Source: Bacillota bacterium
GTDB lineage: Bacteria; Bacillota; Sulfobacillia; Sulfobacillales; JAIMBI01
Length of the DNA: 49,176 nt
Direction: 5' to 3'
NCBI GenBank assembly: GCA_021797815.1
Contig: JAJZYZ010000004.1
Location: forward strand, 65,487 to 114,662
Positions 10,532-44,533 of the stretch are shown piece after piece. Each line of letters opens with the position of its first letter. The stretch's first letter is position 1. The position numbers and the translations under genes are program-made. Under the pieces are notes generated by a model. It was given only the letters and a program-made list of their open reading frames with translations, did no database searches and had not been told where the DNA came from.

Positions 10532-12427
10532 CTACGACTTGTTGTACGCCGCGATGGTTGCCGCGAGACTCGCCACGTCGGGTACGCCGAGGCCCGTGGT
10601 CGCGTCCCACCCGGCTCCTGCGCTGTAGTGCCAGTTGTTGCCGGCGGTGATATCGCGGAATCCCCCGCCATTGGCCACGCTGTACAGGGTCGGCGGCAAA
10701 AAGCCGAGCGAGCCGCCGTTGGCCTGATCGAGAAGCGCCGCGATCCCGGCCCAGTTGGGCGACGCGAACGACGTCCCGCCCCATCCATCTGTCCATCCCG
10801 CGGTGGACGTGGTGTAGGCCGACGACGAGTCATAGATGGAGTAGCCGGTGAAGGGGTCGGCATTCAGTGCCACGTCGGGGACGCCCTTGCCCCCGGCATT
10901 GGCGAGCGCTCCCCCATAAGCGGCCTGCCAGCTTGGCTTCGGGAAGTACATGCTGAATCCGCCTCCCGAGCCCACAGGCTTCAGGGCTCGTGCGGCCTGG
11001 GCCGCGCTGTGAAAGCCGAGACTGCCGGCGCAGGGCAGGAAGTAGTTCCATCCCCAGGCCTGCTCGTTCGTCGGCATGCAGCTAATCTGACTCTGACTCG
11101 GGATCCCGATGGTGCCGGTCGGGATCTGGCTCGAGCCGAGCGTGGTGCCGCCGACCGCCGTGCTGTACGTGAGGTCGGCCGGGGTGATGACAGACAGGGT
11201 CTTGTTGTACCCGAGAACGCCGTAGGCGCCGTAAGCACCGGAGTCTCCGGAGGCGTCGAACATGCTGATGCCCTCGGCCGCGCCCTGCTCCCACTGCTGG
11301 TTCATGACGGTCGCGTATCCGGCCGTCTCGAACTGCTCCGCTTCGCCCCACGACACGGACATGACGTTCGGCACGGTGCCGTTGTACCCGTTCACGACCG
11401 CGTTGAAGACGTCGATGAAGCCGTTATTGGTGTTGGGGGCGGCGTACACCTCGATGTTGGCGCCGGGCGCCATGGAACCAGACTGTTCCACGTCGAGGCT
11501 GGTCTCGGAACCTCCCTGGCCCTTCCCCGACGCTCCCTTGGCCGGGAGAGTCTGGTCCACGCCGATCTCTGTCAGGCTGCCCGTCCGCTTGATGCCGTAG
11601 TACTTCCAGAAGTTAGGGGGGTCAGCCGTCAGGAACGGCGCCAGGGTCGCGATGGCGATGGTTTCACCGGCTCCGGTGATGTTCTGGTTAATGAGTGGCG
11701 TGGCACCATAGATGCTCTGGGTGTCCTGTGGGGTGAGCCCCGTCGGCGCCGTACAGTCGCCGAACCCCTGGTACGCGCATGTGTTCAGAGAGACGTTCGG
11801 CGCCACGCTCTGGTTGGCGGTCATGGGGTGAAACGCCGAGTAGGTGAGCATGCCGGAGATGCCGGATACCATTGAAGCCAGATTGTAGCCTTGATAGCTT
11901 GTGGGCAGAACGGGGTTCTGCGCATTGGCAAGAAAGCTCCGCCCCTGCAGCGTGTAGTGGTTGATCCTCACCTGAAAGGCGTGCTCTACCTCGCTCACGG
12001 TGCCGCTCACGTAGAGATAGTTGTTGGACACGTAATTCGTGCCCGGCTCGGTGGTGCTGGCCATGAGGCCAAAGCTCGTGAGATAGCTCTCGAGCGCCGA
12101 CACGGCGGCCGCCGGCTGATCATAGTTCGCCTGAAACTCTGCCGGGGTCAGGTAGTGATGAAAGTGCTTGTTCCCGGGGGTGACGGTGTCCAGTATGTAC
12201 TGCGACAGGGACGGAAAGTTGGTCGGATTCACGAAGTTCATCCCCACCAGCAGGTTTATCTGCTCGCCGTTGGGGGCCGCCCCGGCTTTGGAAGACTGCC
12301 GAATCAGAGCCGTAGCCGTATTGCCGGGAAGCGCTTGATAATTGCTGGCATGCGCGGGGCCGGCCAGCGTCGTGGCAAGAAGCAGGATCCCAGCCGAACC
12401 GATCCCGGCTGGCCATCGGATATTCAT
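10532..12427 (-). CDS. Secreted S53 family peptidase (sedolisin/kumamolisin-like)
   Basis: Acid-type serine-carboxyl endopeptidase, 631 residues, made as a secreted pro-enzyme. A signal peptide (residues 1-28, ending AHA-SN) is followed by a pro-domain (about 50-205, including NKHFHHYLTPAEFQANYD) and the catalytic domain. The catalytic residues are visible: Glu308 and Asp312 (SETSLDVEQ), oxyanion Asp395 (ASGDSGA) and nucleophile Ser553 (GGTSFASP). The calcium site is Asp592-Ile593 with Gly604, Gly606 and Asp608. The start at 12427 follows GGGAGGG; a longer frame upstream lacks a signal peptide at its end. It is divergent from a T-box controlled peptide-binding lipoprotein, which suggests that the peptidase releases peptides for uptake. 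Family enzymes act at low pH. Confidence 0.94.
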   Translation of the reverse strand: MNIRWPAGIGSAGILLLATTLAGPAHASNYQALPGNTATALIRQSSKAGAAPNGEQINLLVGMNFVNPTNFPSLSQYILDTVTPGNKHFHHYLTPAEFQANYDQPAAAVSALESYLTSFGLMASTTEPGTNYVSNNYLYVSGTVSEVEHAFQVRINHYTLQGRSFLANAQNPVLPTSYQGYNLASMVSGISGMLTYSAFHPMTANQSVAPNVSLNTCAYQGFGDCTAPTGLTPQDTQSIYGATPLINQNITGAGETIAIATLAPFLTADPPNFWKYYGIKRTGSLTEIGVDQTLPAKGASGKGQGGSETSLDVEQSGSMAPGANIEVYAAPNTNNGFIDVFNAVVNGYNGTVPNVMSVSWGEAEQFETAGYATVMNQQWEQGAAEGISMFDASGDSGAYGAYGVLGYNKTLSVITPADLTYSTAVGGTTLGSSQIPTGTIGIPSQSQISCMPTNEQAWGWNYFLPCAGSLGFHSAAQAARALKPVGSGGGFSMYFPKPSWQAAYGGALANAGGKGVPDVALNADPFTGYSIYDSSSAYTTSTAGWTDGWGGTSFASPNWAGIAALLDQANGGSLGFLPPTLYSVANGGGFRDITAGNNWHYSAGAGWDATTGLGVPDVASLAATIAAYNKS

Positions 12428-12779
12428 CGCATTCCCTCCCAGAAACGACATTCGATCGATAAGAAGATATTTACCTGAGGGGCCCTGATTTCCTGCTTTT
12501 CCCACACCAGCCGTTATCGACATTTCGAAACATTCCCGGTGGGGCCGATAACAGCGCGTGGGAGAGGGCCGCCGCCTTCCCCACACCGAACGAGCCGGGA
12601 CTGACTCCGTCAACTCTCCCGAGCGGGCGCCCGCCGCGGTCTGTGAGAGCCGAGCCTCGTCTCCCCTGACCGTTACCGACTCGCGATCTGTCCGGGGCCG
12701 TCCCCCCTCTTCCAGTGTTCAGGCGTGCATGATACGCGAAACTTTTCCGCCGACAGTTGCCGCGAGGCCGGCTGGGCGG
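12428..12779. other. Intergenic region between divergent peptidase and T-box transcripts
   Basis: About 350 bases that must hold the promoters for the leftward peptidase gene and the rightward T-box transcript. I see no protein gene. The DNA next to the peptidase start is locally AT-richer (around 12455-12475, including AAGAAGATATTT on the plus strand). Confidence 0.4.
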
Positions 12780-13041
12780 ATATGATGGGACGCGTACAGG
12801 CGATGAAGGGAACAATGCCTCGTATCCTTGGTCCAAGAGAGCCGACACGATGGTGCAAGTCGGTGTCCGGGATATGATGATCTCCTCCCAGAGCTGGTCG
12901 GGCCAAAGGACAATGGGTCCCGGTAGTCCGATCCGGCCGCTGCAAGCGGGACCGTTATCCTTATAGAGGCCCGAAATCGGGCGAACCAGGGTGGTACCAC
13001 GGGCCAGGACCCGTCCCTTGCGGGGGCGGGTGTTTTGTTTT
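12780..13041 (+). promoter_or_regulatory. T-box riboswitch (tRNA-sensing leader)
   Basis: The T-box sequence AGGGTGGTACCACGGG lies at 12988-13003. A terminator follows: ACCCGTCCC at 13009-13017 pairs with GGGGCGGGT at 13023-13031, then TGTTTTGTTTT. Stem I is recognisable by the AAGAGAG bulge (about 12834-12841) and the distal loop GATGGTGCAAGTC. GTATCC before it pairs with GGGATAT after it. A further stem is GGTCCCG (12916-12922) with CGGGACC (12947-12953). The antiterminator bulge reads TGGT, which pairs with tRNAs having discriminator A, so Ser and Gly are unlikely. The specifier lies in GATGATCTCC; AUC (Ile) or CUC (Leu) are candidates, not settled. The next gene is the peptide-binding lipoprotein about 350 bases on. 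Confidence 0.88.
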
Positions 13042-13390
13042 GCGGACACAAAGAGACCGAGTGACTGGCCGCGCGATCGTCGGAGGCACGAAGAACTCCT
13101 CTGCCGACGCACGGCTGGTGACGGCGATACCCGAAAAGGCCCGGTCCGTTTGGCCGGGGCCCAGCGGTTATCTACGGCGCCAAGACAGGATGGGGAGTGG
13201 TGGAGGCGGCGTCCATGGATGAAAGAGCGGCGCACGGCGGGGCGCGTGCGGGGAGGCGGCGAATCGAGGCTCCAACTCCTATCCGGCATGGTTTGTCGTC
13301 CGCACGCCGTCCCGAATGTCCGACGTCCCGCGTTCGGTCGGCGATGCTCGCGCATAGTCGCCGCCGACCTCATATCAGAAGGAGATGACC
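13042..13390 (+). other. Untranslated stretch between T-box terminator and lipoprotein gene
   Basis: About 350 bases without a convincing gene. Open frames are arginine-rich and have no ribosome site. It is likely 5' untranslated RNA of the peptide-binding protein gene, and ends with the strong ribosome site GAAGGAG. Confidence 0.45.
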
Positions 13391-15091
13391 ATGACGTTCT
13401 ATCGTCGAGCCGGTTTCGTTGCGGCAGCGGCCGCGATGGTCGGCTTCATCGCGGCCTGCGGCGCGGCTCCCGTCAGTGCCCCCGTATCTCATTCGGTGAC
13501 ACTGGTCGGCGGTATCCAGTCCAACATCAACTGGTGGTTCCCGGTCTCGTCCAGCGCCGGCTGCTCCACCACCAACGCGACCACGGCCGCCCTGCTATAT
13601 CGGCCGCTTATCTACATCTCCAACACCGACGGCATCGACTTCAAGAATTCCATCGCCTCCAGCATCGACGTCAGCAACCATGACCAGACGTTCACCGTGC
13701 ACTTGAATCCCAAATGGCACTGGTCGAACGGCACCCCCGTCACGTCTCAGGACGCCGCGTATTCATTTGCCATCATCAAGGCCGCCAACAACCCGAAAGC
13801 GCCATGGAGCGACTGCTTTTCAGCGGTCGGCGGCATGCCGGCGCTGTGGAAGAGCGTCAGCACCCCCAACTCCCATACGCTGGTCGTAACGACCACCAAG
13901 CCGGTCGGACCGAGCTGGTTTGAGCACAACGGGATCGCGCAGCTGATTCCTATTCCGAAAGCGCTCTGGGATCGGTCGTCCAACATGACGAAGGAACTGG
14001 CCTTCATCCTCCAAGTGGGAGCGCAGCCCGCGAACCCGGTGTACCGTGTCGTTGACGGGCCCTACCACATCGGCAAGGTCGTGAACAACGAGTACTGGAC
14101 ACTGGTGGCGAATCCTCACTACGACGGGCACAAGGCATCGGTCACGAAGCTCGTGTTTGAGTACGAGACCTCAACCAGCAGCGAATACCTGGGTCTCCGG
14201 AAGGGCGAATTTGCCACCGCCACGCTCCCGAACTCGTACTACAAAGACCGTGCGACCCTGACCCGTTCGGGATATCAGGTGACCGTGGCGCCTTACAGCT
14301 ACTGCGAGAACAGCATCTTTCTAAATATGTTCCCGCAGGCTCCCGGAGGGGGCGTGCTGTCCCACCTGTACGTGCGGCAGGCGTTGGAGATGGGCATCAA
14401 CCAGGAGGCCCTCATCGCGCACTTCGCACTGGGACTCGGACAGCCCGAGTACGGGCCGATCCCTCCGAAACCGACGAACCAGTTCTACGACCCGCATCTG
14501 AAGCACTATCCGTTCAGCATCCAGAAGGGCACGCGCCTCTTGGAGTCTCATGGCTGGCGCATGCAAAACGGCGTCTTGACGAAAAACGGACAGCCGCTGC
14601 AACTGAACTACCTCATTCAGTCAGGCAGCATCACTCAGACCAACATGGCCCAGTACCTGCAGTCGGAATGGGCGAAAGAGGGTATCAAGGTTACCCTCAC
14701 CACCGAGCCCTTCAACCAGGAAGTGAGTACGGTGGCCAGCCCATCCACCCGGAACAAGTGGGACATGTTCTACGTGGGCTACTGCTACTACCCGAACTAC
14801 TATCCGTCCGGCACCGACCTGTACACGCCGGGTGGCGGAGTTAACTTCGGGGGGTATTCCGACCCTGCCATGACCCAGCTGCTGGACAGCCTGAGGGTCG
14901 CGCCAACGGCGGCGCGGGGACAGCAGCTGCTGGACCGCTACCAGCAGATGGCGGCAACGGAGCTTCCCGCCCTGTATATGCCCCAGACCACCACCCACGA
15001 GGTGACGTTAAAAACCGTCCATGGGGTGCCGCAGTCGTTCGACCCCATCACGGAAGACCAGTGGTTCAACCGGCTGACGCTAAGCCCCTGA
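13391..15091 (+). CDS. Peptide ABC transporter substrate-binding lipoprotein (family 5)
   Basis: Extracytoplasmic solute-binding protein (SBP_bac_5, OppA/DppA-like), 566 residues, anchored as a lipoprotein: the signal MTFYRRAGFVAAAAAMVGF is followed by IAAC with Cys23 as the lipid site. Typical landmarks are HLNPKWHWSNGTPVTSQDAAYSF (about 97-119), YVRQALEMGINQEAL and the FGGYSDPAMTQLLDSLR region near the end. It binds peptides outside the cell for import. I use the ATG at 13391 because GAAGGAG is six bases away; the ATG at 13385 touches the ribosome site. No permease or ATPase gene is nearby. A T-box leader upstream implies induction by shortage of one amino acid. Paralogue of the gene at 30144-31874. 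Confidence 0.92.
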   Translation: MTFYRRAGFVAAAAAMVGFIAACGAAPVSAPVSHSVTLVGGIQSNINWWFPVSSSAGCSTTNATTAALLYRPLIYISNTDGIDFKNSIASSIDVSNHDQTFTVHLNPKWHWSNGTPVTSQDAAYSFAIIKAANNPKAPWSDCFSAVGGMPALWKSVSTPNSHTLVVTTTKPVGPSWFEHNGIAQLIPIPKALWDRSSNMTKELAFILQVGAQPANPVYRVVDGPYHIGKVVNNEYWTLVANPHYDGHKASVTKLVFEYETSTSSEYLGLRKGEFATATLPNSYYKDRATLTRSGYQVTVAPYSYCENSIFLNMFPQAPGGGVLSHLYVRQALEMGINQEALIAHFALGLGQPEYGPIPPKPTNQFYDPHLKHYPFSIQKGTRLLESHGWRMQNGVLTKNGQPLQLNYLIQSGSITQTNMAQYLQSEWAKEGIKVTLTTEPFNQEVSTVASPSTRNKWDMFYVGYCYYPNYYPSGTDLYTPGGGVNFGGYSDPAMTQLLDSLRVAPTAARGQQLLDRYQQMAATELPALYMPQTTTHEVTLKTVHGVPQSFDPITEDQWFNRLTLSP

Positions 15092-15140
15092 GCGGCATGC
15101 CCGCGGCTCATGCCCGCCACGGTCCCGATCCGAGGGCTGG

Positions 15141-15177
15141 AGGGAGGCCAGGACTTAAAGTCCTGGCCTCCCTCTTT
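15141..15177 (+). terminator. Strong intrinsic terminator
   Basis: A 16-base perfect inverted repeat around an A (AGGGAGGCCAGGACTT and its complement, 15141-15173) is followed by CTTT. It sits 50 bases after the peptide-binding protein stop, between convergent genes. It can end the rightward transcript and perhaps also the leftward one. Confidence 0.85.
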
Positions 15178-17843: not shown

Positions 17844-20800
17844 CTACACGTCCCGGGTCCACCATGCCGGGCGATTCCGCGACGCCCGGCCCCCGTGCGG
17901 GGCAAACGTGAACCGTACACCCCAACTGCCAAGAGGGCTCAGGACGCTTCCCAGATCGGCGCCGCCCAACACCCAGATAGCCCCGCCGCTGGCACCGTTA
18001 TCGATGACTTCGAGATGCCTCAGCTTCAGAAACTCCCGGACATCGATTCGCGTCAGGGGCGTCCCGGAGTCTGATGACCCGTCGGGGCCGCGCACGTCCT
18101 CTCCGCTCGCGTGCTGTCCGCCGCCGCCCGCGAGAAAATCGGGACGCGTCGCCAAGATCGGTTCGGAACCCCGACGCGCGCGGCGGGAGACCTCCGCCTC
18201 GGGCTTCAAGATCGTCTGCAGCCGCCGGTGGATCCGCTCCACTTCCCGGTCCGCGTGCGTCATCCAGTCGAGTGACCACACCCGCTCCAACTCCCAGCCG
18301 AGCCCCTCCAGCACGCTTTGATGGAGGCGGTCCCGATCGCGGGCAGAGGGCAGCGCGAGATAGCTGTCACCATCACTCTCGACGCCCAGAATAAAGTGGG
18401 CGGGGTCCCTTGGATCGACCACCCCAACATCCACACGGTGACCCGAGGCGCCAATACGGCCCTGGCACACGTATCCCCGCGCTTCGAGCCGGGTGCGGAT
18501 GCCTTCCTCGATCGGGTGGGCCTGCCGGCGCGCGCTCGCATCCTCCGCCGCACCCGCCATGCGCCCGTGCTGCGCGTAGTGGAGGTAGTCCTTCAAATCG
18601 GCAACCCCGCGTGCCCGCGTGCGGCCCAGATCGATATCATCCGCCGTGATGGTGGAGAAAATGACCACCCCCAGCCGCGCACGGGTGATGGCGACGTTCA
18701 GCCGCCTCTCCCCGCCATTTTGATTCAGGGGCCCCATATTGAGGGCCATCAGGCCATTTGCATCGCGCCCATAAGTGACCGAGAAATAGATGATGTCGCG
18801 CTCGTCGCCCTGCACGTTCTCCAGGTTCTTGATGAAGAGCCGCTCCCGGGCCTGGTTGATCCGATCCTCCACCTCGGGCATCGCCCGCAGCTTCCGGTCG
18901 AGCATTTCCTCGATGAGCAGCTGCTGGTTCTGATTAAACGTCACCACACCCAGCGAAGGCGCCGCCTCCGCCCCTGCCTGAAAATGGCCGAGGACGGCCT
19001 CTACCACCGCCGCGGCCTCTTCAGGGTTCGTCCGGGTGCGGCCGCGATCGTAGACGCCATCCACCGGCTGAAGCCGCACGGCGTGGTCCGTTGTGACCGG
19101 AGATGGAAACGTGACGAGATGCGATTCGTAGTATCGATAATTGGAGAACGCGATGAGACTTTCGTGCCGGCTCCGGTAGTGCCATTCGAGCCGGAGCGTC
19201 GGCAGCGAGGAGGCCAGACATTCATCGAGAATGCTCTCAAGATCTTCTAACGGCCCCTCATCGACCGGATCGTCGGATCCCTGGCGATCAAAGAAGTTGG
19301 TGGGCGGAAGCTGCTTCGGGTCTCCGACGACAATCACCTGGGCGCCGCGCGCGATGACGCCCACGGCATCCCATACGGGAATCTGAGACGCCTCGTCGAA
19401 GATCACCACATCGAAGCGGGCGTCCAGATCGAGATATTGAGACACGGAGAGGGGACTCATCAAGAGGCAGGGCTTCAGTTGGGTCAGCAGCGTGGGCATC
19501 GCCTGGATAAGCTTGCGGACGGGCCAGTGGGCCCGTTTTTTGTTGAGCTCATGCTGCAAGACCCGCATCTGGGGGCCTGGCGGGTTCCCCGGCTGAACCC
19601 GGGGAACCCGGGACGCCAGCGTCGCGACCAGATACCGGGCGGTCGCATCTTGGAAGGATCGATCGAGGGCCCGGAATTCCGCAATTTTTCGCTCGCGATC
19701 CGTCCGTGAGAAGTTCCGCAAAGGAGCTTCGCCGTCCATCACGGCGCGGAACCACCCGTACTGATAAGAGTAGTCCCAGTAGGCCTCGAGGTCTTCGGGC
19801 AAGACCCTTCGCTCGTCCAAACGCGTGATGATGGGCCCGAGGCCCGCGTCGGCCATTTGATGACGCAGTTCCATGAAGCGGGCCCAAAGGTGCCATTCAG
19901 AGCGCGCCTCGCCCCAGCGCCTGAGCGTCTGACCCAGGGCCGAAAACCCGTCCGGGAGGCTTTGAGGCTCCGAGCCCTGAGTAAGGCGGGTAAGCGTGAC
20001 CCGGAATGCGTGGTACTCCTGCCATGCCTGGCGGTATTCTTCCAGGGCGGGCCGGGCCTTTTCGTGCCCTCGTGCTTTCGTCCATCTGGTACAGGTGTGC
20101 CGCGCCAACGGGCCGTCAGTCTGGGTAAGCGCCCATCGCCAGAGGGCTTCCCTAAACTGGTCCGCCCAGTCGGCCATACTGTTGACCGCATCCCAGTCGG
20201 TATCGGTGCCCCGATACACGGTGCTGCCGAGCGTGCGGGCGGCCTCGTCCGCGAACTCCGCAATGTGCCCATCTTCATGGTTGATCTGGCTCAGAGCATG
20301 AAGGGCGGTATCTAAAGATGAGCCCGCAGGAAGCTTCACGGCGTACGGGCGGAGCTGCGCCACAATCCGTCGGCGCACAAGCCAGCGCGTGAGTCCCCCC
20401 CGCGCGAGGGCGGCGGTCCACTCGGCCAGGAGCGGCTCCCCCTGCACCACCGACACCTCCGCTCGAAACCACTCGCCAAGCGTGCGCCCTGCCTCGCTGC
20501 GGGCGCTGCCATGCCGCGCCCATTCGTGGAGTCGCTCGCCTGGGTTGTCGTCGAGGCGCTCTAAAATACCGGAGGGAACACCTTGTTCCCGGGTCAGCAC
20601 CTCACACAGCGTGTCGAAGGCCTCAAGACTCTCGGTGGCGTCCGAGAGCCCGCCCGGACCGACCGCGCTCGCGACGGCGGCCGCGGCCACCTTTATTCGC
20701 TTGAGAATGCGGCCGCTCTCTGAGAGTGTGGCAGCAAGCTCGTCTTCCCAGGCGAACGTGGCCGTCTCGTAAGTCATTCCCACGAGGGGGTGGCTCGCCA

Positions 20801-23372
20801 CGGGATGTTCCAGGTCCGCGATGACGCCGGCGAGGGACCGCACCATCTCCCGTTGGTCGTTGAGCTCCCGCGCCGTGACCTGCTCGTCGCCACGGGACGC
20901 CCCGATCCTCGCCGGATCCCAGTCGGCGTGACGGTAGATGACGCCCATGGCATCGCGCAGAGTGAGGCCGTTTTCGTGCGGGCGGTGCAAGGTCTCCACC
21001 CAGGCATTCAGATCGGCCCGCAACGCCTGAAGGCGCTGCCCTTCGTCGAGCCAGTCGGCCTCGGAATAGGACTCCGCCGCCGTGAGCGCCTGCCGGAACT
21101 GGTCTAGCACTTCCGTCTTCTTGGCCTTGGCGGAATGAAGCTCGAGACAAAACGGGCCAAGCCCTACCGCCGACAGCCGGTCCGACACCACGTCCAGCGC
21201 CGCCATCTTGGCCGACACGAACAGCACCCGCTTGCCGGCTCCCAAGAAGTGGGCGATGAGGTTCGTAATCGTCTGGGACTTGCCCGTTCCCGGCGGCCCC
21301 TCGAGCACGAGATCGTAACCCGCGGCCGCCCGGCTCAGTGCGTTCATTTGAGAAGAATCCGCGTCAAGCGGGGTGAGAAGATCCCACGGTGCGTGTCGCG
21401 CGTCGATGTCACGCCGGTCAGCGAAGGCGTCTGGCGCCCCCACGGCGGCCTCGCCCTGATCCGGGTCGATAAGGCGGGCGACCACCCGATTCTTGCGCAC
21501 ATCCTCGGCCCGGTCCTCGAGATCCTTCCACATTAGATACTTGGCGTACGAGAGAAGGCTCAGAAACGCCTCGTCTCGCACCTCCCAGCCAGCGAGGTCG
21601 CCGACGGCCAGTCGAAAAATCTGGAGAATCTTGCCGACATCGACGCCCGCCTTGTCCGCGGGCAGGGGGTCAAGCCCCTTCAGATTCAGCTGAAATCGGT
21701 CGCGCAAGAGCTGAACCAAGGTGGGATTGACGACGGTGTCGTCATCGTGGCGGGTGATTTCAAACCCGCTTCGGGTCGTGCGCCGCGAGATTGTGACCGG
21801 CATGAGCACGATCGGCGCCGGCATGAGCTTGGGCTTGCTCTCGTCACGCCAGTACAGCATCCCCATGGACAAAAAGAGCGTATTGGCTCCGCTCTCTTCG
21901 AAGCTTGTCCGACTGGCCCGGAGGATGTTGACCAGCCGAGTGGTCAGATCCTGCGGCGGAAGCGCGGACAGGAGCTCCCGATTTTCCATGACGCCACGGG
22001 CCAGCGCATCGTAGGGGTTCTCACCTGTCCGCCGGATCGCAATAGCCACCGATCGGGGATCCTCATCGGGCAGAAACTCGAAGAGCGAGCGAAACTTCCA
22101 CCCCCTCCCGCCCGCCAGCGCATCCTCGAGCTGGTCGAGGTCAGGAACCAGCAGCGGAATCGTTGTCCGTGAGATACGGAAGTTCAGAAGGCGGTTGGTC
22201 CCGGTGAGGTCGAGAAGCTTCCCTTTCCAATGGGCAATCCTCCCCTCGGACGCTGAAGGGCCCGCACCATCGCCGAGAGACGCCTCGTCATCCAGGGGAG
22301 GGAACTCGGGCGCCGGCTCAATTTCGGGCACCCGCACGGGACTCGAAGGGGGTGGTTCGCTCCCGACCCATCGGGAAGGCAGCGGCAGGATGTTTTCCAT
22401 CCGCGCACGGCGAATGTCGAGTCCGAAGAGGAACGCGGCGTCATCGTCCAGATGGCTCGCACCGACCCGTACGGCCGTGGAGAGATCCATGGGAGCCGCT
22501 CCGGTGAGACCCGTCGTCTCGAACACCACCATTTCGCCGCTCCGCACACGTTTGCGGATGCTCTGGCCATCGTCTGTCACGGCGGTGGGGAGTATGCTGT
22601 CCACCAACCAGCATCCGACCCAGGAGTGCCCCTCTTTCACCAGCACGACGGGGTGGAGGCTGGCCTGCTCCAGGCACGACGTGACCAGCATGGTGAGGTC
22701 GAGGCAGGTTCCGAGGCGCCCCGACAAGATCCGTTCTGCAAGCCGGATCTTCTGTCCGTCCACGCCGAACGAGGCGGGCGGGGTGCTGTACACCAGATGC
22801 TCGGCCGCAATAGCGCTGTAGATGCCCGCAACCTGATACCAGACATCTTCGCGACTTCCGGTCTGGTATCCCCGGATTGCGGCCCCGGGCCTCGCCTTCT
22901 CCAAAATCCGGCTGGCCGCGGACAGCAGACCATCAATCGAAGGAGTATTAGGCTGGGAGAAGGCGGCCAGCAGTTCGGGCAGCGACCGCATGCCCGCCCA
23001 CTGATCGTACGCCAGGATCTCCATAGGCACGATCGCGCGAAACAGTTCTTCCGCGTCGGAGGTTGCCACGATGGTCAGATCCCGGTACTCCCGCTCCGAG
23101 CAACCGGCCAGATAGTCATGGGACAGGGGAAGGTCGACAACATCGAAGGTGCGGCTCTCGCCGGGACCCAGCTCATCAATGTGCAGGGCGAAATCGGTGC
23201 TGAGGGGGCGGCCGCTTATCACCACCTGCACACGACGCTCCGCCGCCTCCGACAGGCTCTGGACATTCAGTCGCGAGACCACCGGTACGCTGTTCACGTA
23301 AGACGCAGCACTGACCGGAAGCCGCAGGTCAAGCTCGACCAGAAGGCGATTCGAAGAAGAATTCACCGGCAC
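17844..23372 (-). CDS. DUF4011-helicase-Vsr protein (Hhe-like anti-phage candidate)
   Basis: A giant 1842-residue protein. N-terminal transglutaminase-like segment with a possible Cys223 (GTCLDLTML), His249 (GHSWVGCWL) and Asp258. DUF4011 region about 379-450 (HWKGKLLDLTGTNRLLNFR). SF1 helicase core: Walker A GPPGTGKSQT with Lys698, Walker B FDEASQ (Asp1326, Glu1327), GDPKQLPP (1350-1357), ENVQGDERD and NVAITRAR (1559-1566). Vsr/MTES_1575-type nuclease about 1620-1720 with Asp1648 (GHRVDVGV) and Glu1665 (LGVESDGD). A DUF3320-like end follows. This is the order described for Hhe, a single-gene phage defence found by defence-island surveys. GTG start, weak ribosome site. It stands alone; gene spacing from the MFS fusion downstream is 105 bases. 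No modification gene accompanies it. Confidence 0.88.
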   Translation of the reverse strand: MPVNSSSNRLLVELDLRLPVSAASYVNSVPVVSRLNVQSLSEAAERRVQVVISGRPLSTDFALHIDELGPGESRTFDVVDLPLSHDYLAGCSEREYRDLTIVATSDAEELFRAIVPMEILAYDQWAGMRSLPELLAAFSQPNTPSIDGLLSAASRILEKARPGAAIRGYQTGSREDVWYQVAGIYSAIAAEHLVYSTPPASFGVDGQKIRLAERILSGRLGTCLDLTMLVTSCLEQASLHPVVLVKEGHSWVGCWLVDSILPTAVTDDGQSIRKRVRSGEMVVFETTGLTGAAPMDLSTAVRVGASHLDDDAAFLFGLDIRRARMENILPLPSRWVGSEPPPSSPVRVPEIEPAPEFPPLDDEASLGDGAGPSASEGRIAHWKGKLLDLTGTNRLLNFRISRTTIPLLVPDLDQLEDALAGGRGWKFRSLFEFLPDEDPRSVAIAIRRTGENPYDALARGVMENRELLSALPPQDLTTRLVNILRASRTSFEESGANTLFLSMGMLYWRDESKPKLMPAPIVLMPVTISRRTTRSGFEITRHDDDTVVNPTLVQLLRDRFQLNLKGLDPLPADKAGVDVGKILQIFRLAVGDLAGWEVRDEAFLSLLSYAKYLMWKDLEDRAEDVRKNRVVARLIDPDQGEAAVGAPDAFADRRDIDARHAPWDLLTPLDADSSQMNALSRAAAGYDLVLEGPPGTGKSQTITNLIAHFLGAGKRVLFVSAKMAALDVVSDRLSAVGLGPFCLELHSAKAKKTEVLDQFRQALTAAESYSEADWLDEGQRLQALRADLNAWVETLHRPHENGLTLRDAMGVIYRHADWDPARIGASRGDEQVTARELNDQREMVRSLAGVIADLEHPVASHPLVGMTYETATFAWEDELAATLSESGRILKRIKVAAAAVASAVGPGGLSDATESLEAFDTLCEVLTREQGVPSGILERLDDNPGERLHEWARHGSARSEAGRTLGEWFRAEVSVVQGEPLLAEWTAALARGGLTRWLVRRRIVAQLRPYAVKLPAGSSLDTALHALSQINHEDGHIAEFADEAARTLGSTVYRGTDTDWDAVNSMADWADQFREALWRWALTQTDGPLARHTCTRWTKARGHEKARPALEEYRQAWQEYHAFRVTLTRLTQGSEPQSLPDGFSALGQTLRRWGEARSEWHLWARFMELRHQMADAGLGPIITRLDERRVLPEDLEAYWDYSYQYGWFRAVMDGEAPLRNFSRTDRERKIAEFRALDRSFQDATARYLVATLASRVPRVQPGNPPGPQMRVLQHELNKKRAHWPVRKLIQAMPTLLTQLKPCLLMSPLSVSQYLDLDARFDVVIFDEASQIPVWDAVGVIARGAQVIVVGDPKQLPPTNFFDRQGSDDPVDEGPLEDLESILDECLASSLPTLRLEWHYRSRHESLIAFSNYRYYESHLVTFPSPVTTDHAVRLQPVDGVYDRGRTRTNPEEAAAVVEAVLGHFQAGAEAAPSLGVVTFNQNQQLLIEEMLDRKLRAMPEVEDRINQARERLFIKNLENVQGDERDIIYFSVTYGRDANGLMALNMGPLNQNGGERRLNVAITRARLGVVIFSTITADDIDLGRTRARGVADLKDYLHYAQHGRMAGAAEDASARRQAHPIEEGIRTRLEARGYVCQGRIGASGHRVDVGVVDPRDPAHFILGVESDGDSYLALPSARDRDRLHQSVLEGLGWELERVWSLDWMTHADREVERIHRRLQTILKPEAEVSRRARRGSEPILATRPDFLAGGGGQHASGEDVRGPDGSSDSGTPLTRIDVREFLKLRHLEVIDNGASGGAIWVLGGADLGSVLSPLGSWGVRFTFAPHGGRASRNRPAWWTRDV

Positions 23373-30143: not shown

Positions 30144-31874
30144 CTACTTGTTGGAGCCCACCGTCCAGTAGTTGTATTCGACGTATCCCGAGATGTCGTT
30201 CGTGTACCGGTTGACTCCGTGGAGCCCGGTCTTCACCACCTGAATGCCTGACAGGTTCGGCAGGAAGATAACGGGCAGGTTCTTTGCCGTGAACTGCTGA
30301 TACGCGTCCAGCGCTTGCTGAGCGTGTGCCGGCGACTGGGGGGCGATCGACTGCGCGATGAGCGTGTTCATCGTCGCGTTGTTGTACCCGCTCGTGTTCG
30401 CGGCGGAGGTGGCAGAGAACAGCTGGTCACCGGTTGGGTCGGTGGCTCCGTAGCACCAGCCTCCGCCCCACCACTCAAACTGGAAGTTGGTGTCATTGGT
30501 GGCGATGACCTGGTTGAACGGCTCCTCCTTGATGGTGGCCTTGATGCCTTCCTTAGCCCAGTCGGCCTGGATCAGTTCGGCGATGTTGGTGTTGGTCGTC
30601 GAACCTGACGCCACGAGGAACTGGAATGCCAGCTGCTGGCCGTTCTTCACCATGACGCCGTTCTGCAGGTGCCATCCGTCCGCCTCCAGGACTTTGATGC
30701 CCCGCTGGATGTTGTACGGGTACGGATTCTGGAGGCTCTGGTCATAGAACGGGTTGTTTGGCAGCTTGGGCACCGGGCTATAGCCGGGTGTGGCCAGCTT
30801 CGCTCCGCCCATCAACTGGACGATCGCGGGCTGATCGATCCCGAGCTGCAACGCCTCACGAACGGCGTGCTGCGCGAAGACCTTGCCGATAGCGGCCTCC
30901 GGTCCTGTCGTAACGACATTCGGGAGCATGTAGTTGAAGCAGAACGAGTACGGCGCGCTCTGCACCTGGTAGTACTTGGGCAGCTGCTTGACGTCCTTGT
31001 CATAGGACGTGGGGATGGTCGCATAGGCGAATTGCCCTTTGCGGAGCCCCGCAAACAGGTTCGAGTTTGAGGTTTCGTACTCGAACAGCAGTTCCTTGAT
31101 GGTTGCCTTCTTGAGGGTGAACTTCGGATTGGCCACCAGCGTCCAGTACTCGTTGTTGACGTACGTGCCGAACGAGTACGGTCCGTCCACCACCTTGTAG
31201 ACGGGGTTGGACGGCGAGTTGGCGATGTTGTTGATGAACTTCAGTTCCTGCATCATGTTCGGGTACCGGTCCCAGGTGGCCTTGGGGATGGGAACCAGGT
31301 TCGCGGCAATCCCGTTGTATTCAAACCAGACCGGGTTGGTCGGCTTGTTGATGGTTACGACCACGGTGTAGGGCCCCTTGGCGACTACGCTGGTCCACAG
31401 CGTGGGGACGCCGCCGCTGCCATCACCGCAGGTCTGCCAGGGAGCACCCTTGGCCGTAGACCCTTTGACAATGTCCCACGAGTACACCACGTCCTGAGCG
31501 GTAACGGGCTGCCCGTTGCTCCACTTCCAGTTGTGGTGAAGGCTGATGGTGTACACGGTGTCGTTGTGGGACGCGACGATGCCCGAGGCGATTGACTTCG
31601 AATAATCGATCTGGTCTTTCGTGTTGGTGAACAGGAGGGGGTAATACATTTGGGATGCGATGCTGTAGTTGATGACGCTGCAGGCTGCCGCGGAGACTAC
31701 CGGGAAGTACCAGTTGGGCTCGACCTGGACGCCGCCCACCATGGTGACCGACTTGCTGTTGAGCCCGGGGGCGATGCCCCCGCTCGTGGACGCGGCCGCC
31801 CCGCAGCCCGCCAGCACCAGCGCCCCCGCACCCAACAGGGCCGCCGCCCATCCCCGCCATCGGCGAGATTTCAC
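30144..31874 (-). CDS. Peptide ABC transporter substrate-binding lipoprotein, second copy
   Basis: SBP_bac_5 family lipoprotein of 576 residues. The signal peptide ends LVLAGC with Cys24 as the lipid-modified residue. HLNPKW-like HHNWKWSNGQPVTAQDVVYSW and NPVYKVVDGPYSFGTYVNNEYWTL match the paralogue at 13391-15091 almost segment for segment (NPVYRVVDGPYHIGKVVNNEYWTL there), so the two came from one duplication. It would bind peptides or related solutes outside the cell. GTG start, GAGAGGAG seven bases upstream. As with its paralogue no permease or ATPase genes adjoin. Unlike it, no T-box precedes it, so the copies are probably controlled differently. Confidence 0.92.
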   Translation of the reverse strand: MKSRRWRGWAAALLGAGALVLAGCGAAASTSGGIAPGLNSKSVTMVGGVQVEPNWYFPVVSAAACSVINYSIASQMYYPLLFTNTKDQIDYSKSIASGIVASHNDTVYTISLHHNWKWSNGQPVTAQDVVYSWDIVKGSTAKGAPWQTCGDGSGGVPTLWTSVVAKGPYTVVVTINKPTNPVWFEYNGIAANLVPIPKATWDRYPNMMQELKFINNIANSPSNPVYKVVDGPYSFGTYVNNEYWTLVANPKFTLKKATIKELLFEYETSNSNLFAGLRKGQFAYATIPTSYDKDVKQLPKYYQVQSAPYSFCFNYMLPNVVTTGPEAAIGKVFAQHAVREALQLGIDQPAIVQLMGGAKLATPGYSPVPKLPNNPFYDQSLQNPYPYNIQRGIKVLEADGWHLQNGVMVKNGQQLAFQFLVASGSTTNTNIAELIQADWAKEGIKATIKEEPFNQVIATNDTNFQFEWWGGGWCYGATDPTGDQLFSATSAANTSGYNNATMNTLIAQSIAPQSPAHAQQALDAYQQFTAKNLPVIFLPNLSGIQVVKTGLHGVNRYTNDISGYVEYNYWTVGSNK

Positions 31875-40499: not shown

Positions 40500-41360
40500 T
40501 TACGGTAACGTCACCGCCGAGATCTGGGTCACCACGTCCACTTCCCCGGTGATGGAGTATGGGAACTCCACGTACACGGGGGTGTCGCTGGGTATGGTTA
40601 TTGGCGAGGGCGGGGTGAGGGTGCACGGAACGTTCGGCGGTCCGAGAAGGCATTCCCCTTCGAGGTGGCCCCCGACCATCAGCCAGACAGAGACCACCTG
40701 CTGGGATTGGGGGCTGGAGACCGCCACCTGATCCAGGGTGATCGTCGCCGGAAAGGTTCCCCCAGGCGGGGAGGAGCCCAGGGCGGGGGTACAGCTGGTC
40801 GAGACGAACAGGCTGCAGTCTCCCAAGGGCAGTGTGCTGCCATTAAAGAAATCGACCGTAAAGTAGTCGCTGGGGCCAGCAGGGCCGGTCGCTCCCTGAA
40901 CCCCCTGGGGGCCGGCAATCCCTGTGGCGCCGGTCGCCCCGGCGGCCCCTGTCGGACCCGTCAGCCCCATCGGCCCCATTGGGCCCGTCAGCCCCATCGG
41001 GCCGGCGGATCCGGTTGCCCCCGTCGGGCCGGCGGATCCGGTTGCCCCCGTCGGGCCGGCGAGTCCCGTGGCCCCTATGGGTCCCCTAAGCCCGGTGGCG
41101 CCGGTCTGTCCCCTGACGCCTTGCGGGCCGGCGGGGCCGACGGCGCCCATGGCCCCCCGCGGGCCAGTGGGACCGAGCGAGCCCCTTGCACCCTGTGAAC
41201 CGCGGGGTCCGATCGGGCCCTCAGCTCCGCGGGCTCCGTGCGCGGCTCCGGGAGTCGCGCCGAGGCTGCATCCACTCAAGCCGGCGGCCAACAGACCGGC
41301 GGCCACCAATCCCACGATCATCTGTCTACGCACAAGATGCGCCTCCGATTTTAAGGACAT
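40500..41360 (-). CDS. Collagen-like lipoprotein
   Basis: A 286-residue predicted surface protein. A signal peptide ends LLAAGLSGC with the lipid Cys at about residue 31. From about 43 to 166 come Gly-X-Y triplets, rich in Pro, Ala and Thr at X and Y, with subrepeats GATGSAGPT and GPMGLT. That is the pattern of a bacterial collagen-like triple helix. A globular C-terminal domain of about 118 residues ([15 protein letters not shown] onwards) has four Cys and a beta-rich look; I do not recognise it. The ATG at 41360 follows AGGGGGGGACC. Such proteins form fibrous, surface-bound trimers and may mediate adhesion or shape biofilm. Confidence 0.85.
40938..41066 (-). repeat. Short tandem repeats in collagen-like coding region
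   Basis: The Gly-X-Y region contains direct DNA repeats, for example two 27-base units around GGCCGGCGGATCCGGTTGCC (41001-41060), encoding GATGSAGPT. They are prone to length change. Confidence 0.6.
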
Positions 41361-43281
41361 GGTCCCCCCCTGGGGGAGAAGGCGGGGTGGGATTGCGCTC
41401 ATGCTGACATCCGGAGGACAAGGAGTCGAGTCTATAGAGCGAATTTTGTTACGAAAACGTCCCGGCGAGGTGGCTCCCACGCCCGAGGCGCCGGCTCACT
41501 CGCTGTGAGGAGTCCCCCGTTCGAAACCTGTGCGGGTCCCCACGGGTGAGGGCGGGAACTGACTCTCCCGCCAGGCGGGTGCCGACTTGACCGCCTCTCC
41601 GCCCTGCCTGTCTTCCCGGCTGACATTCGACAGTGCCTCAGGGAGGCCCGAGGGCCAATGACTCGTGATCAGTCAAAGCGTCCTCCCTCAGATTGATGTC
41701 GAATCGGGAAAGCGAAACCCTCGGGCGGTCACTGCTGAGTCCAGAAGAAATGGTGTCAGCAAGCCGTGCTGACCGTCGATACCTCACTTCGGCTGGGACC
41801 CTTGACTGGAATGGCCGTAGTCACGATTCTTGAGAACCCGCTTCAACGTCGGTCCTGCATTCTCTCAGGCGTGGGTGGAGGTCGCAAAAATCTGCTCCGT
41901 TCTGGCGGACTTGTCCAATGCGGCAAGGCGGCGATCCCGCAGCGTGGTGGTGAACACTTCGCGAGCCCGAGTATGTAGGTCGATCAGAGGTCCTATCCTA
42001 TGTCCCCCTTGAAATGCTCAGGTGAGGCTCCGCTCCCGACATCTCGCTCGCCACTGGCCGTACGGCGTCGAAACCGCAAATAGCGCGACAAGTCGCGTGG
42101 CGACAAAATCGAGCGCCCACAATCATTAATTCTCTGGTATTATCCTGTAATAGTAACGGCTGGACGCAGACTGATTCTGAACCACCCCATATCTATCACG
42201 GATTTTGGCGCCACCGATTGGCGCGGGCGCAAGACCGCACGCGCGGCGAAAGTCGGTCCGCCGTGCATGGGTGAAGCTCCCGCGGAACTTTCTGGGTCGG
42301 CGAGCGCTGCGGGACACGATTGGGGGCGCGATCACGTGGAGGCGGTTTTGGCTGTCTTCTGGCCGACGGTGGGCGGCGGCGATACGATCGTAGGTGCCCG
42401 GCCCCCTGATGGCATTTGGGGATTGCCGCTGACAGTTCCCGACGCTCGGGCTGGGCAGCTCCATTGGGTTCGGGAGTCGAAAGATGCCGCAGGCTGGCCG
42501 CTAACAGACAAGGCGGTAAGGGCGAATCCCTTCACGAGGACGCTCGCGTAGCGTGGAGGCCCTCCGCCGGGCCATGCTGGTCCGGTGGTCCATTTTCTTA
42601 CGGTGCGCCGGGAGAGCAACTCGTGGGCTACGATCGCTGACGGCTGGTCCGAACACTCCTCGTCGCGATAGATCATTGGTGCCTGGCACACCGTCGCCCG
42701 AACGTGACGGGGCGGTCGTCAGTCAACCGGCTGGGTTGCCAGTCTAGGGACTACGGAAGCCAGACAGGCGGAGCCCTCTGGCGGTGACCGATAGGGCTGA
42801 CCGGAGTTCGGAGCAGCAAAGGCGGATGACTACCACAAGCTCGTATGGCCCGGCACCACGCTAGCGCGGCGAGATCCACCGATTGTCTCGCACGGCCAGG
42901 GACGTCGGCACCCAAACATCAGAACCCGTTGGGAAGAAGGTCGTCACAGGTGCCCGGACTCGCTTGTTTGCCGCCGACCGTAGATACACGGGACGCAGTG
43001 GCTTCCGAACCGACTCTGGTTCGCCAATGGCAGCTCGGAAGCCCACGCCGGGCCGGATTTGTAGGCGCACACCCGTCAGGCGGATGCCGTCCCATAGGGT
43101 TATAGGGCCGCAGGCGCATGGTCAAGGCGAGTTGGGGCGGGGCGCCAACGCCACTCGGATACAAGAAGCGGCGATACTGTTTTCTCCATAAGGACGGAGG
43201 TGAAGCTCGTCAAGCACAACGGCCGCTCCAGTTCGCACGGCTGTGTTCGTGTTTCGACAGAAGAAAGCGGAGGGAACACAG
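41361..43281. other. 1.9 kb gene-poor region
   Basis: No gene can be supported. Part of it (42120-42200) is clearly AT-richer than its surroundings. One frame (about 42267-42551) has somewhat coding-like codon use and ends TDKAVRANPFTRTL, but has no ribosome site or known family. Inverted repeats such as CGCGAC-AA-GTCGCG (about 42084-42097) occur. It may be decayed foreign DNA. Confidence 0.35.
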
Positions 43282-44360: not shown

Positions 44361-44411
44361 TGGTGCGCCCGGTAGGATTTGAACCTACGGCCTTCTGATT
44401 CGTAGTCAGAC
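44361..44411 (-). tRNA. 3' fragment of tRNA-Arg (ACG), integration scar
   Basis: Read on the minus strand, the segment gives the anticodon arm TCTGACTACGAATCAGA (anticodon ACG), the variable loop AGG, the T arm GTAGGTTCAAATCCTAC and the 3' acceptor strand CGGGCGCACCA with the encoded CCA. Upstream of 44411 the sequence is unrelated, so the D arm and the 5' acceptor strand (expected GCGCCCG) are missing. A truncated 3' half like this is what an integrated element leaves when it uses a tRNA gene as its attachment site. The intact gene should lie at the far end of the element, at higher coordinates. Confidence 0.85.
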
Positions 44412-44417
44412 AACACG

Positions 44418-44533
44418 GGCAGTTGACCCCAGTGCGACCGGGTTGGCTGGACTCTCTCCGAATTGCCTCTAGATCGCGTTCTCAAGCGCTTTTCCGTAAC
44501 TTCCGAGTGGACCCCGGTGCGCGGCAGTTGACC
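44418..44533 (+). repeat. Direct 11-mer repeat beside the attachment core
   Basis: GGCAGTTGACC occurs at 44418-44428 and again at 44523-44533, 105 bases apart, both on the island side of the tRNA fragment. The position suits arm-type integrase-binding sites, but only two copies are seen and function is inferred. Confidence 0.45.

Follow-up and report, generated by a model that had tools for sequence, protein, structure and literature searches.

The closest described system is the leucine T-box of the ilv-leu operon of B. subtilis, where a CUC triplet reportedly makes regulation leucine dependent (Marta 1996, cited in PMC2494555). Other described T-boxes stand before uptake genes. The trpX T-box of Streptococcus suis precedes the gene for the substrate-binding component of an ABC importer in an auxotrophic organism, and provides a tested precedent for such an arrangement (PMC9382623). 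In B. subtilis, the APC permease gene yvbW likewise follows a leucine T-box, with a counterpart in B. licheniformis (PMC2494555).

We analyzed a window of 49,176 nucleotides, meaning the whole stretch of DNA under study, from a Sulfobacillus-related Bacillota bacterium. The leader at positions 12794 to 13021 of the forward strand is a real T-box riboswitch, a secure member of its family with an ordinary mechanism. It is of the same RNA class as the ilv-leu leucine T-boxes, including that of ilvE in its own genome, and shares with them the CUC triplet, the UGGU bulge, and the terminator mechanism. However, those T-boxes control biosynthesis, whereas this leader is followed, after a long gap, by a gene for a transport binding protein. 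Like the trpX T-box, it lies 5' of an uptake binding-protein gene, but trpX concerns Trp, and its product binds the free amino acid and is encoded together with permease and ATPase in one operon, whereas here we find Leu and a stand-alone family-5 protein of the peptide type. As with yvbW, a Leu T-box has been recruited within one lineage to a gene for transport, although the transporter families differ. The parts of this T-box are thus all of known kinds; their pairing with a gene for a peptide-binding lipoprotein, seen here in a relative of Sulfobacillus, is uncommon. Among openly accessible papers, which do not take in key reviews of T-box regulons, none was found that describes a Leu T-box preceding an OppA-like gene. 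In our preferred reading, which we consider quite probable, a transcription-attenuating leucine T-box, copied from the ilvE leader, controls the peptide-binding lipoprotein gene. The features of the locus are as follows, with positions counted in the window.

10532-12427, reverse strand: S53-type (kumamolisin-like) secreted peptidase gene, divergent; context only
12757-12786, forward strand: sigma-70-like promoter (TTGCCG-18-TATGAT), directly upstream of the leader and the only one in 12400-13450
12794-13021, forward strand: T-box leader (RF00230), one of 11 in the genome
12808-12811, forward strand: GGGA, 5' arm of the stem I helix that lies below the specifier loop, with UCCC at 12886-12889 as its partner
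12836-12840, forward strand: AGAGA element of stem I, from sequence reading and the Rfam alignment
12852-12858, forward strand: distal loop of stem I, GGUGCAA, from sequence reading and the Rfam alignment
12882-12884, forward strand: specifier triplet, CUC (Leu); a single spacer base separates it from the helix arm UCCC
12952-12957, forward strand: CCGUUA element of the stem IIA/B region, from the Rfam alignment; conserved in six of six leaders
12969-12982, forward strand: stem III, GCCCG/CGGGC, from the Rfam alignment
12988-13003, forward strand: T-box sequence AGGGUGGUACCACGGG, containing UGGU at 12992-12995
12988-13018, forward strand: antiterminator helix, AGGG/CCCU plus ACGGG/CCCGU, -10.0 kcal/mol, found in unconstrained folding
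13009-13041, forward strand: intrinsic terminator with U-run, -18.2 kcal/mol
13046-13390, forward strand: unconserved spacer from terminator to gene, with no conserved ORF
13391-15091, forward strand: gene for an OppA-like family-5 solute-binding lipoprotein (PF00496)
15140-15175, forward strand: inverted repeat with T-rich tail, a likely terminator 3' of the lipoprotein gene, from sequence reading

A T-box leader had been proposed here by a sequence-only reading, which also named the Rfam search that would check it. With reporting by E value, RF00230 matched 12794-13021 on the forward strand over its full length (model positions 1 to 219), with 80.9 bits and an E value of 7.8e-18. This is below the gathering score of the family, 93 bits, and when the window was scanned with Rfam at the gathering threshold, a tRNA-like match alone was reported and not the T-box. 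That threshold is strict for this lineage, since the genome's 11 T-boxes include 8 that fall short of it, this leader and those 5' of serS, valS, and pheS among them. The core AGGGTGGTACCACG is exact at 12988-13001, and the sole other match to it in the window has two mismatches, which is chance level. The stem I landmarks that the sequence-only reading had noticed are in place as the AGAGA and GGUG elements and the specifier loop, and the antiterminator helix holds the T-box sequence with its UGGN bulge. The terminator with a U-run, previously read as a 9-base helix, has 10 pairs (13009-13031), then GTTTTGTTTT. Strand 13010-13018 is common to antiterminator and terminator, so that the two structures are mutually exclusive, as a switch needs. 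In single-sequence folding, the energy of the whole leader was no better than that of shuffled sequence (z of 0.07); because folding energy gives no signal, the T-box assignment rests on the covariance-model score and on conservation.

The first gene downstream encodes, as had been suggested, an OppA-type binding protein: its SBP_bac_5 domain matches PF00496 with an E value of 2.5e-49, and a lipobox-like FIAAC is read near the N terminus. The ORF as listed starts at 13385, but the ATG at 13391 is the better start, as it fits both the ribosome-binding site and a sister species of the same genus (G001; the window's own genome is G000). There, TTG takes the place of the first ATG, and the second is still properly spaced from the ribosome-binding site. 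The ligands of family-5 binding proteins also include nickel, heme, opines, and others, and so the substrate here is only presumed to be a peptide. The nearest solved relative is the L. lactis OppA; nickel-binding (NikA-type) models also match the protein, and no NCBIfam equivalog cut-off was reached. The genome gives 12 family-5 binding-protein matches. Genes for OppC-type permeases are found on other contigs, which makes this binding protein an orphan, and the gene is probably transcribed alone, because the inverted repeat comes after its stop codon. The window contains a second family-5 gene (30144-31874, reverse strand), whose product is 47% identical to the T-box-linked protein; no exact T-box core was found near it.

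The gap before the lipoprotein gene is the main uncertainty over which gene the T-box controls, and control across it is presumed. Taking the ATG at 13391, about 345 bases separate the terminator from the start codon (387 in the sister species by the listed start), compared with roughly 10 to 140 bases between the other T-boxes of the genome and their genes; the remark in the sequence-only reading that the gap is unusually long is borne out. Such a distance, together with the closeness of the other T-boxes to their genes, would fit a T-box that works but does not act on the binding protein, a stand-alone attenuated leader with the promoter of the gene inside the gap. So would the poor conservation of the gap, which aligns with that of the sister species no better than shuffled sequence does under the same settings, one short patch excepted. 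We nevertheless judge this arrangement unlikely. The gap was searched for a conserved ORF, a mobile-element remnant, a second genomic copy, and a sigma-70-like promoter, and none was found; the leader would have no conserved ORF within the gap to control, and the only sigma-70-like promoter precedes the leader. Moreover, promoter, T-box, gap, and binding-protein gene follow one another in the sister species just as they do here. Control of the lipoprotein gene by the T-box is the reading that we favor.

As to the amino acid sensed, the sequence-only reading had left the choice between Ile (AUC) and Leu (CUC), and leucine is the half that stands. The specifier loop reads AUGAU-CUC-C-UCCC, in which UCCC pairs with GGGA at 12808-12811. 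According to TBDB, the specifier occupies bases 2 to 4 counted back from the end of the bulge (PMC7778990), and this is where CUC is found. The same layout is seen in other T-boxes of the genome, namely, those of trpE (GAA-UGG-A-UCCG), ileS (GAG-AUC-G-CCC), serS (UCC-A-CCCC), and ilvN (CUC-U-UCCC). CUC is invariant in six leaders, those of the two binding-protein genes and those of ilvE in G000, G003, G004, and G005, and among the leucine specifiers of TBDB it is the most frequent, at 0.77 (PMC7778990). The genome encodes a tRNA-Leu(GAG) that matches both CUC and UGGU, with an encoded 3' end ACCA and with the discriminator A that had been predicted from the TGGT bulge; UGGU at 12992-12995 would pair with the ACCA end of the tRNA. 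The specifier is CUC, and an uncharged leucine tRNA is most likely what is sensed. That the leader is instead an isoleucine T-box is very improbable. AUC is present at 12880-12882 and the predicted discriminator A is compatible with Ile, but the same place reads UUC in the sister species and CUC in the ilvE leaders, and AUC lies three bases from the helix, not one, where TBDB considers bases 1 to 5 only (PMC7778990).

The divergent secreted peptidase had likewise been tied to the binding protein by the sequence-only reading, a link that our comparisons leave unsupported, as the T-box and the binding protein are kept in the sister species but a close ortholog of the S53 peptidase is absent. The corresponding arrangement would be a divergent peptide-foraging unit, in which peptidase and binding protein obey one starvation signal. 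The kumamolisin-like peptidase gene does lie within about 400 bases in the opposite direction, but the T-box faces the binding protein only, and the peptidase orthologs in G004 to G006 (74%) are on contigs other than those with the matching T-boxes. Sequence upstream of the promoter region in the sister species is unrelated to this locus. We hold such a unit to be most improbable.

The promoter and T-box together are 89% identical to those of the sister species (257 of 288 aligned bases), whose promoter, TTGCCT-18-TATGAT, has hexamer positions and spacing unchanged. The coding sequence of the binding protein is 84.6% identical, and its third codon positions are 65% identical. The helix above the specifier loop stays paired despite base changes, with CGUAUC/GAUAUG in the window and CACAUC/GAUGUG in the sister species. 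Since the leader is more conserved than third codon positions and the gap, and pairing is kept through base changes, we conclude that it is under selection. That it is a decaying, functionless duplicate, as its score below the Rfam cut-off and the absence of a leader from the G006 ortholog might suggest, is hardly credible for an element so much better conserved than third codon positions and the adjoining gap, and with its helices kept.

The sole other close DNA match to the leader in its own genome is the T-box before ilvE (G000:C38), with 71 to 72% identity. By gene names taken from reading the translated sequences, the operon that follows is ilvE-[second T-box]-ilvN-like-ilvC-leuA-leuC-leuD-leuB-ilvB-ilvD. 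The second T-box, between ilvE and the ilvN-like gene, has a CUC specifier as well (L049, 6504-6740). DNA matches in G003 to G005 are ilvE leaders too. A tree built from 30 T-boxes places the leaders of the two binding-protein genes as the sister group of the four ilvE leaders, with support of 0.94 for the joint clade and 0.97 for the binding-protein pair. The binding-protein leader most likely descends from the T-box of ilvE in the ilv-leu operon and has since diverged; it would have arisen by the copying of that element to the lipoprotein locus, which fits the model of T-box acquisition by duplication of Wels et al. (PMC2494555). A more distant ortholog of the binding protein in G006 (62% identity) has no T-box, and no core motif was found at best-hit family-5 genes in the flanks retrieved from 24 other genomes (L014 to L037); the leader was thus either acquired in the genus or lost in G006. 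One core-like match within a coding sequence (L086) was taken as chance, and a T-box adjoining a binding-protein gene in G003 (C73) belongs to the ileS that follows. The locus would clearly exemplify the copying of a biosynthetic operon's T-box to a scavenging gene, with the specifier left unchanged.

In the proposed mechanism, RNA polymerase would start at the promoter at 12757-12786 and make the leader. When tRNA-Leu is charged, the terminator at 13009-13041 would form and transcription would stop. An uncharged tRNA-Leu(GAG) would pair through its anticodon with CUC at 12882-12884 and through its ACCA end with UGGU at 12992-12995, and by stabilizing the antiterminator would let transcription run on for about 345 bases into the binding-protein gene. 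The lipoprotein would then capture peptides and deliver them to a shared permease of the Opp/Dpp type whose genes lie elsewhere, and so supply leucine. As a Leu T-box precedes a peptide-binding lipoprotein gene, leucine shortage probably switches on peptide uptake. One of the dozen similar family-5 binding proteins of this uncultured bacterium would then have a likely nutritional role, that of providing leucine.

No match to leuA was found at 1e-10 in the sister species (assembly 95% complete) or in G006 (96%), and operon-type ilvC and ilvE are missing from both assemblies. An 18-kb query around the ilv-leu operon found in the sister species only the binding-protein T-box and weak pieces, and the flanks of the operon had no counterpart either. 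Both organisms may be leucine auxotrophs, with the proviso that these are draft assemblies from which contigs could be missing. Because its assembly lacks leuA and the ilv-leu operon, the data suggest that the sister species obtains leucine from peptides. The correlation between T-box and auxotrophy is imperfect, as G006 has no T-box although it also has no leuA. We offer only tentatively, as somewhat doubtful, the further idea that the copied Leu T-box was kept where some members of the lineage lost leucine synthesis, such that charging of tRNA-Leu would control peptide scavenging and not biosynthesis. If the sister species is truly a leucine auxotroph, the locus would show regulation moving from the making of an amino acid to its import.

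Elsewhere in the window, a tRNA-like sequence at 44364-44422 on the reverse strand (RF00005, 37.5 bits) has most of its D arm missing and is followed by CCA; it was not called by ARAGORN and is possibly a remnant or an odd tRNA. The reverse strand also encodes, at 17844-23372, an 1842-amino-acid protein with DUF4011, AAA helicase, and MTES_1575 nuclease regions, which strongly matches the PADLOC candidate defense model PDC-S37 with 1140 bits and Hhe with 540 bits, and, at 40500-41480, a protein with collagen triple-helix repeats (PF01391).
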